From Alkalinema sp. FACHB-956 (GTDB lineage: Bacteria > Cyanobacteriota > Cyanobacteriia > Leptolyngbyales > Leptolyngbyaceae): 38,699 nucleotides of DNA. Below, in pieces: positions 29,189 to 35,820 of the stretch. The stretch covers positions 1 through 38,699 of the forward strand of contig NZ_JACJRC010000040.1 in NCBI RefSeq assembly GCF_014697025.1, read 5' to 3'. A model generated the notes under the pieces. That model had not been told where the DNA came from and made no database searches. It was given only the letters and a program-made list of their open reading frames with translations. Positions within the stretch are counted from its first letter, which is position 1, and every line of letters begins with the position of its first letter. Made by a program: the position numbers and the translations under genes.

Positions 29189-30148
29189 TTAAATCTGTCG
29201 TTCCGACGCCACTACTAATCCAGCTCCCAAGGCTTCTGCGATCGTATTAATTAAGCGATACAGGGCAAGAATGGCGAGTAAGTCCGTGGTGGGCAGAAAA
29301 GGGCTGAGCAAGGCCAACGCCACTGCTTCAAACACACCAATGCCACCGGGTAAGCCTGGAATAATAAACCCAAGTAACCAAGCGATCGCAAATCCACCAT
29401 AGAGGACCTGAAGATGATCGATTGCGAACGGACTCACCGCTAGGCACACAAGGAAAAATCCGGTTCCCCGTAGGATTAAAAAACTGAATTCTCCCAGAAA
29501 AGAGCACCATGGGTAATGCCTCAACGCGAAATTGATGTCAGTGCCTCCCAAGGTCTTTTGCTTCAGGCGAACGAGTTGCTGAATCCCAATGTTTAGGAAC
29601 TGAGGATGCATCGCCACCAAAATAATGAATAAGCAACAACCCTGAATGCCCCATGTCCAGGCTCCAGTTTGCCAAGCCAGTAACGGTTGAAGCCCAACGA
29701 TTGCTAAGGCGACTGCCGCTAAAACGAGCAATAACGGTTCCAAGAGAATACTAATGGCAGCGATCGACCCCGGAACCTTAGCAGCTTGGCTGGCCTGCAA
29801 GCGTCCATAGAAATGCCAGACATTGCCAGGGAGATATTTAGCAATATTGGTTTTGAGATAAATAGCCATCCCCCAGTCATAGGTCACCATTTGCCCCAAA
29901 TCCTGGAGAATGTTGGCCCAGACCATCCCTGCGAGAATATGGGCTAAAAGCGTCATTCCCAACGCGATCGCGAGACTGGCCAGTCCTGCTGAGCCAAGCC
30001 GCAAACTCAAGACCCCTTGACCATGTTCCAACAGCGTTTTGGTGAGAAAAAAGACAACAACTCCAATCACCACGAAACGCAACTGGCCTTTGACAAGAGA
30101 AGACAGTCCCTGGGAAACCCGACTTAACTGAGATTTCAACGTTGACAT
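29189..30148 (-). CDS. Flippase-like membrane protein (LPG_synthase_TM/UPF0104 family)
   Basis: Polytopic membrane protein of 319 residues with about eight hydrophobic helices. The signature near the end, [24 protein letters not shown], together with [15 protein letters not shown] in the middle, identifies the lysylphosphatidylglycerol synthase transmembrane family, whose stand-alone members are thought to move lipids or undecaprenyl-type carriers. No synthetase domain is attached, so lipid lysylation is unlikely. The frame opens at 30187, but ATG 30148 is chosen; it overlaps the end of larC by 13 bases, implying co-expression that may be structural rather than functional. Confidence 0.85.
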
Positions 30149-31803
30149 AACTCTAATACTTCCTGCAAGCCAGATTCGGCAAACCAAGCCGCTAGGGCTA
30201 AACGATGCACTTCACGCCAAGGTAGATGATACTGGCGCGCCAGCACCGCACAATCTTCATATTCTGGTTGAACATTAACAACTGTTTCGCCTAATTTTGC
30301 CACTTTTAGGCGCACAACACCCTGTTTTAACTGGATTGGCTGCCATTCTCGGGAAAGCTCTGTGCGCGTCTGCAATGTCCTACGAATCCCTAGGGTGGTT
30401 GTTTCCCGAAACAGAATGCGTTCACAGTCTTCAATGGTTTCCGGTCTACAAATCACCGTAATGAGTGTACCAGGACGGGATTTTTTCATCCCGATCGCCT
30501 GGGTAAAGACATCCAATGCCCCAGCAGACAGTAACACTTCAAATAAATAGCCCAAGGCCTGGGGATTCAGGTCGTCTATCTGAGTCTCCAAAACAGCGAT
30601 CGTTGTCTGGGTAGGAGATGACTCGGGGGGGAGATCCCGGGTAGATGGGGATTCCGGAAGAGAAGGGGGTGGCGACAATTGGCTTGAAGCGTCCTTTGAC
30701 ACCGCAGAAGACTGGGCTAACGTCATTAGCCTAGAAGGGGTTGCAAGCCTAGAAGGGGTTGCAGCATCAGACTCCCACGATTCCCCCAACCACAGACGAA
30801 CCATGTTAGGAATGGGGAGTTGCAAAGATCCAGCGCCCAGGCCAACTTTTTGGAGGGTCATGCGGGGCGGAGGGCCAAACTGTTGGGCTAGGACAGTGAC
30901 GATCGCAGCCCCCGTTGGTGTCACTAATTCCCGATCGATCCCATTGTGATAAATCGGCACCTGACGAGATTCAAAAAGTTTTAAGACAGCAGGTACGGGC
31001 ACGGGCAATCGTCCATGGGCGGCCCAAATGGTTCCCCCCCCTGTGGGCAACGCAGAACAATAAATTGCGTCAACCCCTAACCAGTCCAGCCCTAAACAGG
31101 TACCCACAATATCCACGATCGCATCCACTGCCCCCACTTCATGGAAGTGCACTTCCTCCGGCGGAATTCCATGGACGGCACCTTCTGCTTCAGCCAATTG
31201 CCGAAAAATTGCCAAACTCCAGCCCGTAGCCCGATCGGGTAAATGAGCGTTGTGAATGAGCTGCACAATATCCGGCAAATTGCGCGTCTGGCCATAGGCC
31301 CCAGGAATCTCACCATGGTGATGTCCAGCAGACTCATCATGAGCGTGGTGATGGTGGTGATGGTGGTGATGGTGAGTGTGGTGGTGATGAGCGTGGTGAT
31401 GGTGAGCGTGGTGATGGTGAGCGTGGTGGTGATGATGATGGTGGGAAGAATACGATGCGGGTGACTCTACAGCATCCCCTGATGGGGAAGAATCAACATG
31501 GTCTTGGGGATGACCTTGGGGAGATCGCTGACTCAGCGTTAACGCAGGGTCTAAATTCTGCGTTGTCGATCCATGACTAGTTGGATCTAGTAATTCCGGA
31601 TCTAGTAATTCCACCGTCAGCTTGGTAGCTTGTTGACCATTGTGGGAAACTTTCTCTACCTTTAGATTAAATTCACCCTGAAGCCCTAGTTTTTGCAAAG
31701 ATTGGGTTAGGTAGTCGATCGGAACCCCCGCATCGATCAACGCCCCCAGACACATATCCCCCGAAATCCCCGTCGGACAATCTAGATAGGCCAGCTTGGT
31801 CAT
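30136..31803 (-). CDS. larC: Nickel-pincer cofactor biosynthesis protein LarC
   Basis: Inserts nickel into the pyridinium dithio-bis-carboxylate precursor, using CTP, to make the nickel-pincer nucleotide. The 555-residue protein begins with the family start [21 protein letters not shown]. It then carries two insertions relative to the usual length of about 400: an N-terminal histidine tract (residues about 121-163, 33 His in short runs split by Ala or Thr) and a Ser/Pro-rich linker (about 345-405) at the point where the LarC1 and LarC2 halves join. Core motifs after the His tract include [18 protein letters not shown] and [19 protein letters not shown]; LarC2 starts [17 protein letters not shown]. 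In Lactobacillus the two halves are joined by a frameshift; here one frame suffices. No larB, larE or larA is present. Confidence 0.93.
31315..31443 (-). repeat. Histidine-codon microsatellite inside larC
   Basis: About 130 bases of short repeated ATG/GTG-type units on the plus strand (CAC/CAT codons on the minus strand), with GAGCGTGGTG-type blocks. Such a tract can change length by slippage in whole codons, altering histidine number without breaking the gene. Confidence 0.85.
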
Positions 31804-33704: not shown

Positions 33705-33733
33705 TTGACAGATTTGCAACCTAGAGATAATAT
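33705..33733 (+). promoter_or_regulatory. Sigma-70 promoter of the first NYN gene
   Basis: TTGACA (33705-33710), a 17-base spacer and TAATAT (33728-33733): close to the consensus. Transcription should begin near 33740, at the conserved CAAGCTTT. Confidence 0.8.
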
Positions 33734-33739
33734 AGCGCC

Positions 33740-33885
33740 CAAGCTTTTTGTGAAGGATGTTCTTCTGAATCTAATAATCGGTTGTTCCTTGAACAGGCTT
33801 CTTTGGAAGCAAATTTAGTATCAGGTTCGCAAGAATTTTTTTCACCCATAAGCCTCTACTTAAAACGTGCTTAGAGGTAACACCC
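33740..33885 (+). promoter_or_regulatory. Structured leader RNA, copy 1 (NYN gene)
   Basis: Leader of about 146 bases. Block 1 (33759-33776, GTTCTTCTGAATCTAATA) pairs with block 2 (33818-33836, GTATCAGGTTCGCAAGAAT): TTCTTCTGAATC to GGTTCGCAAGAA gives twelve positions with one C-C mismatch and two wobbles. The apical part folds as TGTTC / GAACA (33783-33795) and GCTTC / GAAGC (33797-33810). Block 3 (CCTCTA, 33853-33858) pairs with TAGAGG (33872-33877), hiding the Shine-Dalgarno GAGG, seven to eight bases before ATG 33886. Copy 2 at 34520-34685 repeats every block. Regulation of translation is inferred. Confidence 0.65.
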
Positions 33886-34332
33886 ATGGCAAGGATTAAG
33901 CTTGTTTATGTGTTTCTGGATGTGGAAAATATTCCTTCCCATCCCTATGCCTTTCGGATTCGACGATTTTCGCGACGCTTCGGCAAGGTTCACCCCGATC
34001 GCTTGCGCGCCTATGCTGTTAACTGGAGGATTCGAGAAGAGTCCAAGAAAATGCTGGAAAAAGCCAGCTTTTTGACCAAAAATGTTGCCCCTGGGGAGAA
34101 TGCGGTCGATAACAGGATCATTCGAGACTGCACGACGTTTTCTCAACAGGGAAGACCCCAGGATGTCTACATTTTGGTGAGTGGAGATGGGGACTATGTC
34201 GAAATGGTGGAAATGCTACACCAACGGGATAAATATGTCGTGTGCCTCACCAGCAAAGCCCATGCAGCTAGCAAGAGGCTGTTACAGTGCGTTGATGAAC
34301 ATTACTTTCTCGAAGATCTGTATTCGTCCTAA
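33886..34332 (+). CDS. NYN-domain ribonuclease-like protein 1
   Basis: Protein of 148 residues made of one NYN (PIN-like) domain, a fold of metal-dependent ribonucleases. The acidic residues expected at the active site are visible: VFLDVENIP (Asp 12), NAVDNRIIRD and VSGDGDYVEM, followed by the strand KYVVCLTSK. By hand alignment it matches NYN protein 2 without gaps over about 145 residues, some 80 of them identical, so the two are old paralogues. The Shine-Dalgarno (GAGGT) lies in a leader hairpin. Its stop is followed by a foldable 87-base element and then the promoter of the second copy. Target RNA is unknown. Confidence 0.85.
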   Translation: MARIKLVYVFLDVENIPSHPYAFRIRRFSRRFGKVHPDRLRAYAVNWRIREESKKMLEKASFLTKNVAPGENAVDNRIIRDCTTFSQQGRPQDVYILVSGDGDYVEMVEMLHQRDKYVVCLTSKAHAASKRLLQCVDEHYFLEDLYSS

Positions 34333-34355
34333 TTGACTGATTTAGATCCTGATTT

Positions 34356-34442
34356 GGATACTGCATCCCTTGGCAAAGAGGCCAGGGCTTATGCCCGGTA
34401 TTGTTGACTGTTCCTGTTTAGGAACTCCAGGGTGCAGTATCC
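34356..34442. repeat. Foldable 87-base cruciform element between the NYN genes
   Basis: The ends GGATACTGCATCCC (34356-34369) and GGGTGCAGTATCC (34430-34442) pair with one bulge, and two perfect hairpins lie inside: GGGC / GCCC (34385-34396) and GTTCC / GGAAC (34410-34425). There is no T-run, so it is not a simple terminator. It could be a small RNA, a dispersed mobile repeat or a processing site. Confidence 0.5.
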
Positions 34443-34484
34443 CGGATTGATACAAAACTTCTCTCAGCTTTGAGATACGAGGAC

Positions 34485-34513
34485 TTGACAAGCCTAAAAA
34501 CTGGGGTTACTCT
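34485..34513 (+). promoter_or_regulatory. Promoter of the NYN2-rnc operon
   Basis: TTGACA (34485-34490), a 17-base spacer and TACTCT (34508-34513). The -10 is weaker than in copy 1, but the distance from TTGACA to the conserved CAAGCTTT is 35 bases in both copies. Confidence 0.6.
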
Positions 34514-34519
34514 TGTGAG

Positions 34520-34685
34520 CAAGCTTTAAGTTAAAGGCGTTCTTCTGAATCTAATATTTGCTTATGTACTGAGGGCTTCCCTTCCCACTCCAGGGTATTC
34601 CTCCCCACGTAGTCGAGTATCAGGTTCGCAAGAATATCTTTAATCCAAAAGCCTCTAACTCCTACAATTTTTAGAGGTTTTAACT
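34520..34685 (+). promoter_or_regulatory. Structured leader RNA, copy 2 (NYN2-rnc)
   Basis: Leader of about 166 bases. Block 1 (34539-34556) and block 2 (34617-34635) are identical to copy 1 and pair in the same way. The 13 bases from block 2 to AAGCCTCTA and the 7 bases from TTAGAGGT to ATG are also the same. The Shine-Dalgarno hairpin is CCTCTAA (34652-34658) / TTAGAGG (34671-34677), extendable by AAA(A) / TTTT around a bulged G. Only the apical part differs: 60 bases here, 41 in copy 1, without sequence similarity. Confidence 0.65.
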
Positions 34686-35165
34686 ATGGCAAAGCAACCG
34701 CTTGTCCATTTGTTTTGTGACGTGGAAAATATTCCTGCCCATCGCTACGCAGACTACATTCGACAATTTTCCAAGCAGTACGGTCGAACTTGCCAAACTC
34801 GACTGCGAGTGTACGCTGTAGATTGGGTGATTCGAGAACAGCCGAGGAAAACATTTCAACAAACAGGTTTTTTGATTTTAAGAGCAAAACCTGGAGACAA
34901 TGCGGTAGATAACAAGATTCTGCGGGATGGTCTTAGTTTCTCAAAACAAGGGAACTTGCAGGACATTTATATCTTGATTACTGGGGATGGTGATTATGTT
35001 CAGCTTGTAGAAGTCCTGCGTGAACGTGGTAAATACGTCATTTGTCTCACCAGTAAACACTGTAAATCTAGTCAAAAGCTCCTTCAGAGCGTTCATGAAC
35101 ATTACTTTCTCGAAGATCTTCCCCAACTGCTTGCGCGATCCCATGAAATCCTTCACGTTGCCTAA
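34686..35165 (+). CDS. NYN-domain ribonuclease-like protein 2, coupled to rnc
   Basis: A 159-residue NYN (PIN-like) domain protein, paralogue of the gene just upstream. Predicted active-site acids: LFCDVENIP (Asp 12), NAVDNKILRD and ITGDGDYVQLV. A C-terminal extension of about 12 residues (QLLARSHEILHVA) is missing in copy 1. Its last 23 bases overlap the start of the RNase III gene, so the two should be made together. It has its own promoter and a leader RNA like that of copy 1. This context suggests a role in RNA processing or decay, possibly including its own message; this is inference. Confidence 0.87.
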   Translation: MAKQPLVHLFCDVENIPAHRYADYIRQFSKQYGRTCQTRLRVYAVDWVIREQPRKTFQQTGFLILRAKPGDNAVDNKILRDGLSFSKQGNLQDIYILITGDGDYVQLVEVLRERGKYVICLTSKHCKSSQKLLQSVHEHYFLEDLPQLLARSHEILHVA

Positions 35166-35820
35166 ATTTGAACATCTGAGTCTCTTCCAGCAGGCGATGA
35201 CCCATCGTTCCTATGCGAATGAGACTCCCAGTGTGAAAAAACACAACGAACGTCTAGAGTTTCTGGGCGATGCGATTTTGACCTTTCTCTGTGGTGAATT
35301 TCTCTATAAGAAATATCCTGCACTACCGGAAGGAAAGCTGACGCCGTTGCGAGCTTCTTTGGTGGACGAAAAGCAGTTGGCTCAATTCGCGATCGCCCTA
35401 GATCTCGGCAAACACCTATTGCTAGGCAAAGGGACCGATCAAATGGGGGGACGACAAAATCCCAACCTGTTAAGTAGCGCCTTTGAGGCGTTGATTGGAG
35501 CGCATTATCTGGATTGTGATTCAGATATGAATCGGGTGCGTTGCTATGTTGAACCCTTCTTTGAATCCGTTGTGGAAAAGGTAACCGTTGATGCCCCCAA
35601 TGTGAATTACAAGAGTGAGTTGCAGCATTGGGCGGCAGTCAACCATGGGGAAAACCCGGTGTACAACCTGATGCAAGCGATCGGGCCCGATCACCAAAAG
35701 CAATTTACAGTGGAGGTACAAGTGCGGGGTAAATCCTATGGACGGGGAACCGGACGCACTAAACAAGCCGCTGAAAAAGATGCGGCGCGGGATGCATTGG
35801 AAACCCTAGAGCTGTTGTGA
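35143..35820 (+). CDS. rnc: Ribonuclease III
   Basis: Double-strand-specific endoribonuclease for rRNA and mRNA processing, 225 residues. The catalytic domain (to about 150) has MTHRSYANE, the signature NERLEFLGDAIL with the essential Glu and Asp, and SSAFEALIGAHYLD. In that last motif, E. coli RNase III reads DTVEALIG; here Ser replaces the first metal-binding Asp while the second, the Glu, stays, which may be a family-specific variant. The dsRNA-binding domain follows (about 152-223; NYKSELQHWAAV, VEVQVRGKSYGRGTGRTKQAAEKDAA). The frame is open to 35020, but ATG 35143 is the natural start, overlapping the NYN2 gene. RNase III is known to control itself through a leader stem in other bacteria. 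Confidence 0.93.
   Translation: MKSFTLPKFEHLSLFQQAMTHRSYANETPSVKKHNERLEFLGDAILTFLCGEFLYKKYPALPEGKLTPLRASLVDEKQLAQFAIALDLGKHLLLGKGTDQMGGRQNPNLLSSAFEALIGAHYLDCDSDMNRVRCYVEPFFESVVEKVTVDAPNVNYKSELQHWAAVNHGENPVYNLMQAIGPDHQKQFTVEVQVRGKSYGRGTGRTKQAAEKDAARDALETLELL

Follow-up and report, generated by a model that had tools for sequence, protein, structure and literature searches.

Hairpin leaders before an exchangeable nuclease gene and rnc in cyanobacteria: a probable RNA switch cut by RNase III

What do the structured leaders in front of two tandem nuclease genes do, and which protein reads them? The question is raised by a stretch of 38,699 nucleotides from the cyanobacterium Alkalinema sp. FACHB-956 (contig NZ_JACJRC010000040.1, positions 1 to 38,699, forward strand; hereafter the window), in which two NYN nuclease genes, NYN1 and NYN2, each behind its own leader, are followed by rnc, the gene for ribonuclease III (RNase III). 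The best explanation, to which we give a probability of about one half, is a translation-limiting leader that is processed by RNase III and provides feedback on the nuclease-rnc operon. Judged from the sequence, the combination of hairpin leader, exchangeable nuclease and rnc is probably an undescribed RNA switch that is cut by RNase III itself. The locus is made up of the following features.

33705..33733, plus strand: promoter 1, TTGACA, 17 bases, TAATAT (10/12 in a consensus scan)
33740..33747, plus strand: CAAGCTTT box of leader 1, the same in both leaders
33750..33845, plus strand: long hairpin of leader 1, 24 base pairs (bp; runs of 8+6+7+3 split by single mismatches), including blocks 1 and 2
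33850..33878, plus strand: ribosome-site hairpin of leader 1, AAGCCTCTA / TTAGAGGT; GAGG ends 8 bases 5' of ATG
33886..34332, plus strand: NYN1, NYN nuclease gene 1, 148 amino acids (PF01936, E = 6e-17)
34485..34513, plus strand: promoter-like site 2, TTGACA, 17 bases, TACTCT (weak second hexamer, read from the sequence)
34530..34644, plus strand: long hairpin of leader 2, 24 bp as in leader 1, lengthened at the apex to 35 bp in the fold
34649..34678, plus strand: ribosome-site hairpin of leader 2; GAGG ends 8 bases 5' of ATG
34686..35165, plus strand: NYN2, NYN nuclease gene 2, 159 amino acids (PF01936, E = 1.2e-17)
35143..35820, plus strand: rnc, RNase III, 225 amino acids (TIGR02191, 233.1 bits against a cut-off of 166.25)

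Both NYN proteins exceed the curated PF01936 cut-off of 24.2 bits (63 and 65.2 bits), and the RNase III is complete, with a PF00035 match, a double-stranded RNA-binding domain and a score above the TIGR02191 equivalog cut-off. With the rnc start codon picked by eye and homology, its ATG lies inside the 3' end of NYN2, and through this 23-base overlap the translation of rnc may be coupled to that of NYN2. The two NYN proteins are 57% identical over 145 amino acids, close to the 56% counted in an initial annotation of this DNA, and their coding nucleotide identity is 65%. Residues D12, D75, D101 and D103 (NYN2 numbering), which we take to be the catalytic aspartates, are common to the three NYN paralogues of the genome.

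The initial annotation had described the two leaders as repeated blocks at fixed spacings, and direct reading bore out every block, spacing and coordinate. CAAGCTTT stands at 33740 and 34520, in both leaders 35 from TTGACA; block 1, GTTCTTCTGAATCTAATA, follows 19 further on, at 33759 and 34539; and block 2, GTATCAGGTTCGCAAGAAT, lies at 33818 and 34617, with 41 bases between the blocks in leader 1 and 60 in leader 2. AAGCCTCTA comes 13 bases after block 2 (33850 and 34649), and TTAGAGGT (33871 and 34671) is separated by 7 bases from ATG (33886 and 34686). A TTGACA promoter had been claimed for each NYN gene; TTGACA is indeed present at 33705 and 34485, but a good -10 element accompanies promoter 1 only, and the consensus scan that scored promoter 1 did not pick up site 2. 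Transcription would start near the CAAGCTTT box of leader 1. The CTT of this box can pair with the AAG immediately 5' of the ribosome-site hairpin.

In minimum-energy folds, blocks 1 and 2 fall into one helix, the outer part of which differs between the copies; what had been taken for a 12-position stem is in fact 24 pairs in four runs. All 24 form in both copies (19 invariant, 4 with one-sided changes, 1 with a two-sided change and none broken), and in the outer 8 bp the copies differ at 6 bases with pairing retained. Sliding the partners by 1-3 columns left 34-53% of cells paired as compared with 100% unslid, a comparison that favours the stem, as the structure was drawn from the two leaders themselves. 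The fold z-score was -2.29 for leader 1 (7/200 shuffles as good) and -5.81 for leader 2 (0/200). Compensatory change in the stem, which had been named as a check, was found as the one two-sided pair and is not significant with two sequences (261/500 shuffles as good); a substitution simulation of the six outer-stem sites gave P = 0.005, 0.027 and 0.10 at a transition bias of 1, 2 and 4, respectively. The predicted hairpin over the Shine-Dalgarno site was upheld, the mean pairing probability of GAGG being 0.83 in leader 1 and 1.0 in leader 2 when the last 60 bases were folded. In leader 1 this hairpin depends on the fold: a longer fold ending at 33900 pairs the region otherwise, and another fold shows the hairpin.

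Allowing up to 3 mismatches, blocks 1 and 2 were each found only at their two window sites (0.01 and 0.00 expected), block 1 being searched for in the window; across the whole genome, block 2 has two exact sites, both in the window leaders, and two others with 3 mismatches. Since the blocks are identical at 37 of 37 positions, as compared with 14 of 34 at 4-fold degenerate coding sites (first two bases the same) and 65% coding nucleotide identity, it is reasonable to regard them as selected rather than recently copied, as the initial annotation had argued.

NYN genes next to rnc are not peculiar to this genome. Of 29 loci (L009-L037) that gave the best matches outside it among 386 cyanobacterial genomes, 23 have rnc adjoining an NYN frame, and rnc lies downstream of NYN in all 42 named loci, which came from a scan of GTDB r220 genomes with nine NYN proteins and are cyanobacterial by their titles. 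A phylum sample of 108 rnc places comprised 29 with NYN upstream (some truncated or remnants), 10 with HNH and 69 with neither; the 26 rnc places of the window's family comprised 2 with NYN, 9 with HNH (two degenerate) and 15 with neither. Three places are common to both sets, and seven fused or long RNase III places lie outside the sample. The gene order itself is not new, because the adjacency of Npun_R1332 (NYN) and Npun_R1331 (rnc) in Nostoc punctiforme and a fusion in Oscillatoria are in print (accessible sections of PMC7660261). Leaders, hairpins, NYN genes in tandem and replacement by HNH are not mentioned in these sections.

The tandem arrangement is not unique to the window either, as a further NYN gene lies upstream in two of the named loci, L114 and L097. 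The tandem leaders of L114 align (68% over 164 columns, and 83% over 29 at the ribosome-site region) between NYN proteins of 46% identity, and those of L097 align at 66% over 271 and 80% over 40; alignable leaders beside diverged NYN proteins are thus the pattern of the window. This bears on the alternative that the identical window blocks come from recent duplication or local gene conversion and have no function, an explanation that gains something from the fact that only two sequences of the window leader are known. However, blocks of 18 and 19 bases and their spacings are identical although third codon positions are close to random and the apical parts show no similarity, the outer-stem changes keep pairing, and L114 repeats the contrast between leader and protein. 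Recent copying without function is therefore highly improbable.

Several NYN-rnc loci have other peculiarities. Nostoc-type NYN proteins (e.g. L010 1456-2238) have a C-terminal region of ~90 residues that is absent from the window NYN proteins and looks OST-HTH/LOTUS-like by eye, with no Pfam match. Long NYN frames with four NYN profile matches each stand before rnc, without a long hairpin, in L109 (2986-4620) and L111 (2986-4521). Two RNase III frames lie beside NYN in L110 (3799-4870), L112 (3814-5430) and L111 (1314-2588 and 4631-5341).

We then consider whether the leaders of relatives share the architecture of the window. A ribosome site paired with a probability above 0.7 is present in 32 of 47 non-redundant NYN leaders (70, less 23 removed for similarity of 85% or more across the last 60 bases). 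The corresponding figure is 14 of 87 for other genes in these loci and 12 of 15 for HNH leaders, some start codons or ribosome sites of which are uncertain (L207, L215 and L046). L112 (no start found) was left out of the leader counts, and L065 and L067 (no usable HNH start) and L142 (a near copy of L141) out of the HNH leader counts. Folds revealed a stem of 52-131 bp in 37 of 41 named NYN loci and one of at least 50 bp in 12 of 15 HNH leaders. This fold count (controls: median 28 bp, 16/87 with at least 40), which for window leader 1 had taken a 25-bp stem 5' of the promoter instead of the leader hairpin, and a lax scoring were superseded by strict scoring of inverted repeats in the 520 bases upstream. 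The median strict score was 58.75 for 62 nuclease-rnc leaders, 13.25 for 82 rnc genes without a nuclease and 17 for 88 other genes. A score of at least 60 was reached by 29 of the 62 leaders, and one of at least 41.5 by 52; no comparable repeat stands before the 82 rnc genes without NYN or HNH (0/82 with at least 41.5, the best being 41), a control from which L212 (leader remnant), L043, L068, L070 and L071 were left out. At the foot of the long hairpin, GTCTYA and TRAGAC occur together in 45 of 62 loci, which include both NYN and HNH types, and TTGACA is present within 130 bases 5' of the repeat in 51 of 62 loci as compared with 78 of 1240 random stretches.

These hairpins also show covariation. 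In 14 Nostoc leaders, a 79-pair hairpin has 10 two-sided changes (shuffle mean 3.1, 0/500 as high); 97.2% of its cells pair, and sliding the partners lowers this to 47% or less. In seven HNH leaders, one 66-pair consensus hairpin has 19 two-sided changes, counted without a shuffle control. An alignment of 18 Nostoc-type leaders supported 14 consensus pairs in an inner, interrupted hairpin and 7 in the ribosome-site hairpin. Of these 21 pairs, 4 are changed on both sides, a number reached by 35/500 shuffles, whereas the number of cells with such changes was reached by 1/500. Aligned without the 5' arm, 16 Nostoc leaders gave a weak fold, which changed when the complete hairpin was taken in. RNAalifold returned no structure for 39 leaders aligned jointly.

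A covariance model built only from the 18 Nostoc-type NYN leaders (R1) matched 20 of the 386 genomes, each at one place and all upstream of rnc; some of these genomes contain seed loci of the model (e.g. G030 = L091). Between match and rnc lies NYN in 17 and HNH in 3 of the 20. Run on 100 loci, R1 matched L171 and otherwise reached E values of 0.07 to 0.24 only. A second model (R2), built from the two window leaders, was to have found the same leader elsewhere and did not: among 42 genomes of the family it matched this genome alone. Of the covariation and recurrence before NYN and rnc genes that the initial annotation had named as checks, the similar architecture upstream of NYN-rnc with clear covariation was thus found in relatives, and the same sequence was not. 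Across cyanobacteria the architecture recurs, whereas the window leader sequence is seen in one genome.

The long repeats could act as DNA, namely as an operator palindrome, a cruciform or a mobile-element remnant, with an incidental RNA fold; their position near promoter-like boxes and their conserved ends would suit such elements, and HNH genes are often mobile. The base changes speak otherwise. On the sense strand of 42 repeats scoring at least 50, G-U oppositions number 371 and A-C oppositions 195 (composition expects 52%), and G-U exceeds A-C in 37 of the 39 untied loci and falls short in 2, the loci being related. Such an excess is not expected of a palindrome that is maintained as DNA; by this signature, the long hairpin of the relatives is kept as a sense RNA. 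In addition, the Nostoc-type repeat occupies one place in each of the four genomes searched, and TTGACA lies 5' of the repeat in 51 of 62 loci. We regard a DNA element as very unlikely. A multi-copy palindromic element (miniature inverted-repeat transposable element) was also considered and rejected, block 2 having two exact copies in the genome and the Nostoc-type hairpin the single place per genome just given.

The nuclease behind the leader can be replaced. In L134 (1501-1937), L141 and L142, a small HNH nuclease gene occupies the slot of NYN between an R1-type leader and rnc; the HNH proteins of L134 and L150 match PF01844 and PF14279. HNH also precedes rnc in the window's own family (L045, L046, L050, L058, L062, L063 and L066), where the nearest rnc relatives are L043, without a nuclease (244 bases upstream covered), and L045, L046 and L050, with HNH. 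L134 (HNH) and L088 (NYN) share 89% identity over the ~1.38 kb that lead up to the foot of the long hairpin and 95% within rnc, and their comparison reported nothing alike in the interval from that foot to rnc; L090 (NYN) and L141 (HNH) are 88% identical upstream, 88% over 105 leader columns and 95% in rnc. Because flanks and rnc are near-identical while the nuclease differs, NYN and HNH are, on this comparison, exchanged in place with leader and rnc kept. On a tree of 109 RNase III proteins, the labels NYN, HNH and neither need 19 changes, at least 6 for HNH and at least 11 for NYN (starred branches); the tree is without L175 to L232 (first part of rnc only, length filter), and NYN-remnant rows were counted as NYN. 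In L212, the nuclease is missing: a weak R1 match (1346-1480, E 0.24) stops 6 bases short of where rnc is estimated to start, as if the leader there served rnc directly. The first rnc codons of L212 (MTNDT...) resemble an NYN start joined to rnc, as if the nuclease had been deleted. NYN remnants or truncated genes before rnc in L164, L170, L213 and L171/L133 (family f7) point to repeated loss.

This exchange bears on the identity of the reader. One candidate is the NYN protein itself, which would bind or cut the leader and repress its own synthesis, each NYN gene keeping a leader of its own. Each tandem NYN gene does have its own leader in the window and in L114, and in vitro cleavage of a CRISPR repeat RNA is reported for a CRISPR-associated NYN ribonuclease (accessible sections of PMC11346440). 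The third NYN paralogue of the genome (L003 1477-2043, contig C3; 56-58% identical to NYN2) has no adjoining rnc, no block 2 and no similar leader, which fits NYN and RNase III equally well as reader. On the other hand, leaders matched by the NYN-built model also precede HNH genes, most HNH leaders have the long hairpin and the buried ribosome site, and rnc is the constant neighbour. An NYN reader is rather unlikely on this evidence, and RNase III is the likelier reader, because the nuclease changes fold while rnc is constant in leader-bearing loci. The initial annotation had proposed a cis-regulatory RNA or an autoregulatory site for NYN: a structured leader over the ribosome site, conserved and recurring, is retained from this proposal, and its specificity for NYN is weakened, as related leaders precede HNH.

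By eye, the neighbours of the third paralogue resemble an iron-sulphur membrane protein gene and a polysaccharide tyrosine-kinase gene. Close members of this NYN subfamily, 56-58% identical, are confined to the three copies in this genome; elsewhere, the 386 and 42 genomes searched gave only distant NYN proteins with far weaker best matches. No relative was confirmed among 129 stretches of genome contigs or 52 of viral contigs, phages gave no match and plasmids gave three matches at 27% identity; the leader pattern was not found in viral contigs. PADLOC gave only weak partial matches, to LabA-like NYN and PtuB-like HNH.

A riboswitch or RNA thermometer, in which the ribosome-site hairpin opens under stress and RNase III has no special part, is another way to read the leaders. 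The ribosome-site hairpin is common to NYN and HNH leaders, and conserved stretches lie between the hairpins of the Nostoc leaders. In addition, N. punctiforme in a stress-like state raises the expression of the NYN gene adjoining rnc more than that of any other gene (63.5-fold by RNA sequencing and 21.4-fold by reverse transcription–quantitative PCR, according to the accessible sections of PMC7660261); such genes can therefore be strongly regulated. However, Rfam 15 gave no match at gathering score, and no known riboswitch or aptamer family, on the window leaders or the leaders of 39 relatives' loci, and a riboswitch or thermometer leaves unexplained both the hairpin of 52-131 bp and the association with rnc. 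We consider this explanation unlikely.

Taken together, we propose the following scheme for processing by RNase III. The leader would be transcribed in this genome, and each NYN gene would stand under a cis-acting leader composed of a long hairpin and then the ribosome-site hairpin, which would hold basal translation low. The long hairpin would serve as a double-stranded substrate of RNase III, and its presumed cleavage would set the stability or translation of the nuclease-rnc message. If co-transcribed with NYN2, rnc would be translated through coupling to it. RNase III activity would then feed back on rnc and its partner nuclease, the sign of this regulation being one that we infer. What can be read from the DNA, namely the hairpins, the buried ribosome site, the gene order, its recurrence, the nuclease exchange and, in relatives, the covariation and sense-RNA signature, forms the footing of this putative scheme.

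A number of observations weigh against it. R1 gave no match in this genome, and the R2 leader, confined to it, has no sequence in common with the wider family; the foot motif GTCTYA/TRAGAC is absent from the window leaders; their hairpins are short, 24 bp (35 with the apex of leader 2) as compared with a median of 75 in the relatives' folds; and their strict repeat scores are low, at 20 and 27. The window leaders may thus be a reduced descendant of the long leaders or an independent copy of the same design, with which they share the order of promoter, hairpin, ribosome-site hairpin, NYN and rnc, and the tandem NYN genes. Ten of the 62 leaders score below 41.5 (the window's two, L082, L108, L109, L111, L046, L050, L177 and L192), and 15 of the 47 NYN leaders do not have the ribosome site paired above 0.7. 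Four of the 88 other-gene controls score at least 60, and some of these may share the leader repeat through a wrong start of the open reading frame. The loci are related and their counts are not independent, relatedness being uncorrected, and 69 of the 108 sampled rnc places have neither nuclease, so rnc needs no such leader. Finally, the main text of the N. punctiforme paper mentions rnc (Npun_R1331) a single time, as a neighbour and not as induced (accessible sections of PMC7660261). This either points to separate regulation of nuclease and rnc, which processing could bring about, or counts against a simple shared feedback.

Feedback through leaders cut by RNase III is textbook knowledge, drawn mainly from Escherichia coli. 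There, RNase III cuts its own 5' untranslated region (PMC8708148, citing Bardwell et al. 1989 for the rnc-era leader; accessible sections). The likeness is that the leader of a gene string encoding RNase III offers a double-stranded RNase III site, so that feedback is the natural reading. Here the hairpins lie upstream in a gene string in which rnc overlaps NYN2, and they would belong to the leader of the rnc transcript if the string is co-transcribed. Unlike in E. coli, rnc does not stand directly behind the leader, as NYN in the window and NYN or HNH in the relatives intervenes; moreover, the ribosome site is in a second hairpin, relatives have a much longer hairpin, and a comparable repeat was not found before the 82 rnc genes that lack a nuclease. 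In Bacillus subtilis, the mrnC-rlmB-yacP neighbourhood encodes an NYN ribonuclease (Rae1/YacP) near the RNase III-like Mini-III, but this NYN belongs to another subfamily, Mini-III has no double-stranded RNA-binding domain, and we know of no such leader there. RNase III of B. subtilis also silences the prophage toxins txpA and yonT, and in this sense holds a harmful gene down by cutting double-stranded RNA (accessible sections of PMC3531473); that duplex is formed by mRNA and antisense RNA, whereas here it would be a hairpin within the nuclease-rnc leader. No description of such a leader was found in the open-licence literature or Rfam 15. The exchangeable nuclease, the very long hairpin of the relatives and the buried ribosome site would be what is new in an RNase III-linked leader.

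Other features of these loci lie outside the argument. One is placed between NYN1 and leader 2:

34356..34442, plus strand: inverted repeat of 87 bases with 13-nucleotide arms, 92% complementary, with a branched top in the fold

It is not followed by a T run and may be a 3' end or processing structure. On the minus strand, window positions 30136-31803 hold a reading frame with a long histidine run, presumably for a LarC-like nickel-insertion protein. In relatives, the cyclic di-AMP riboswitch RF00379 lies ~0.3-2 kb 3' of rnc in L081, L083, L093, L101, L117, L118, L121 and L150. An NYN protein, which may or may not be encoded next to rnc, is called "highly perturbed" in the heat-stress section on Mastigocladus (accessible part of PMC9284123).

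The RNase III-processed leader may be extended, tentatively and with considerable doubt, to a cassette of TTGACA promoter, long hairpin (24 bp here, up to ~130 bp in relatives), ribosome-site hairpin, exchangeable nuclease and RNase III, in which the hairpin would report RNase III activity. Cutting would keep the nuclease low, and the uncut leader would allow it to be made once something such as a phage had blocked or swamped RNase III. In this doubtful extension, the swapping, decay and divergence of the nuclease would speak of a role in conflict or defence, with RNase III as both guard and antidote. Provided that the leader does sense the activity of RNase III, nuclease effectors would here have a trigger of a new kind. 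More generally, an undescribed leader architecture present in several cyanobacterial families would link RNase III with a partner nuclease for which a nuclease of different fold can substitute behind the same leader. It offers a testable system for how bacteria balance the cleavage of double-stranded RNA, and may help to explain why, in published Nostoc expression data, induction is strongest for an NYN gene adjoining rnc.

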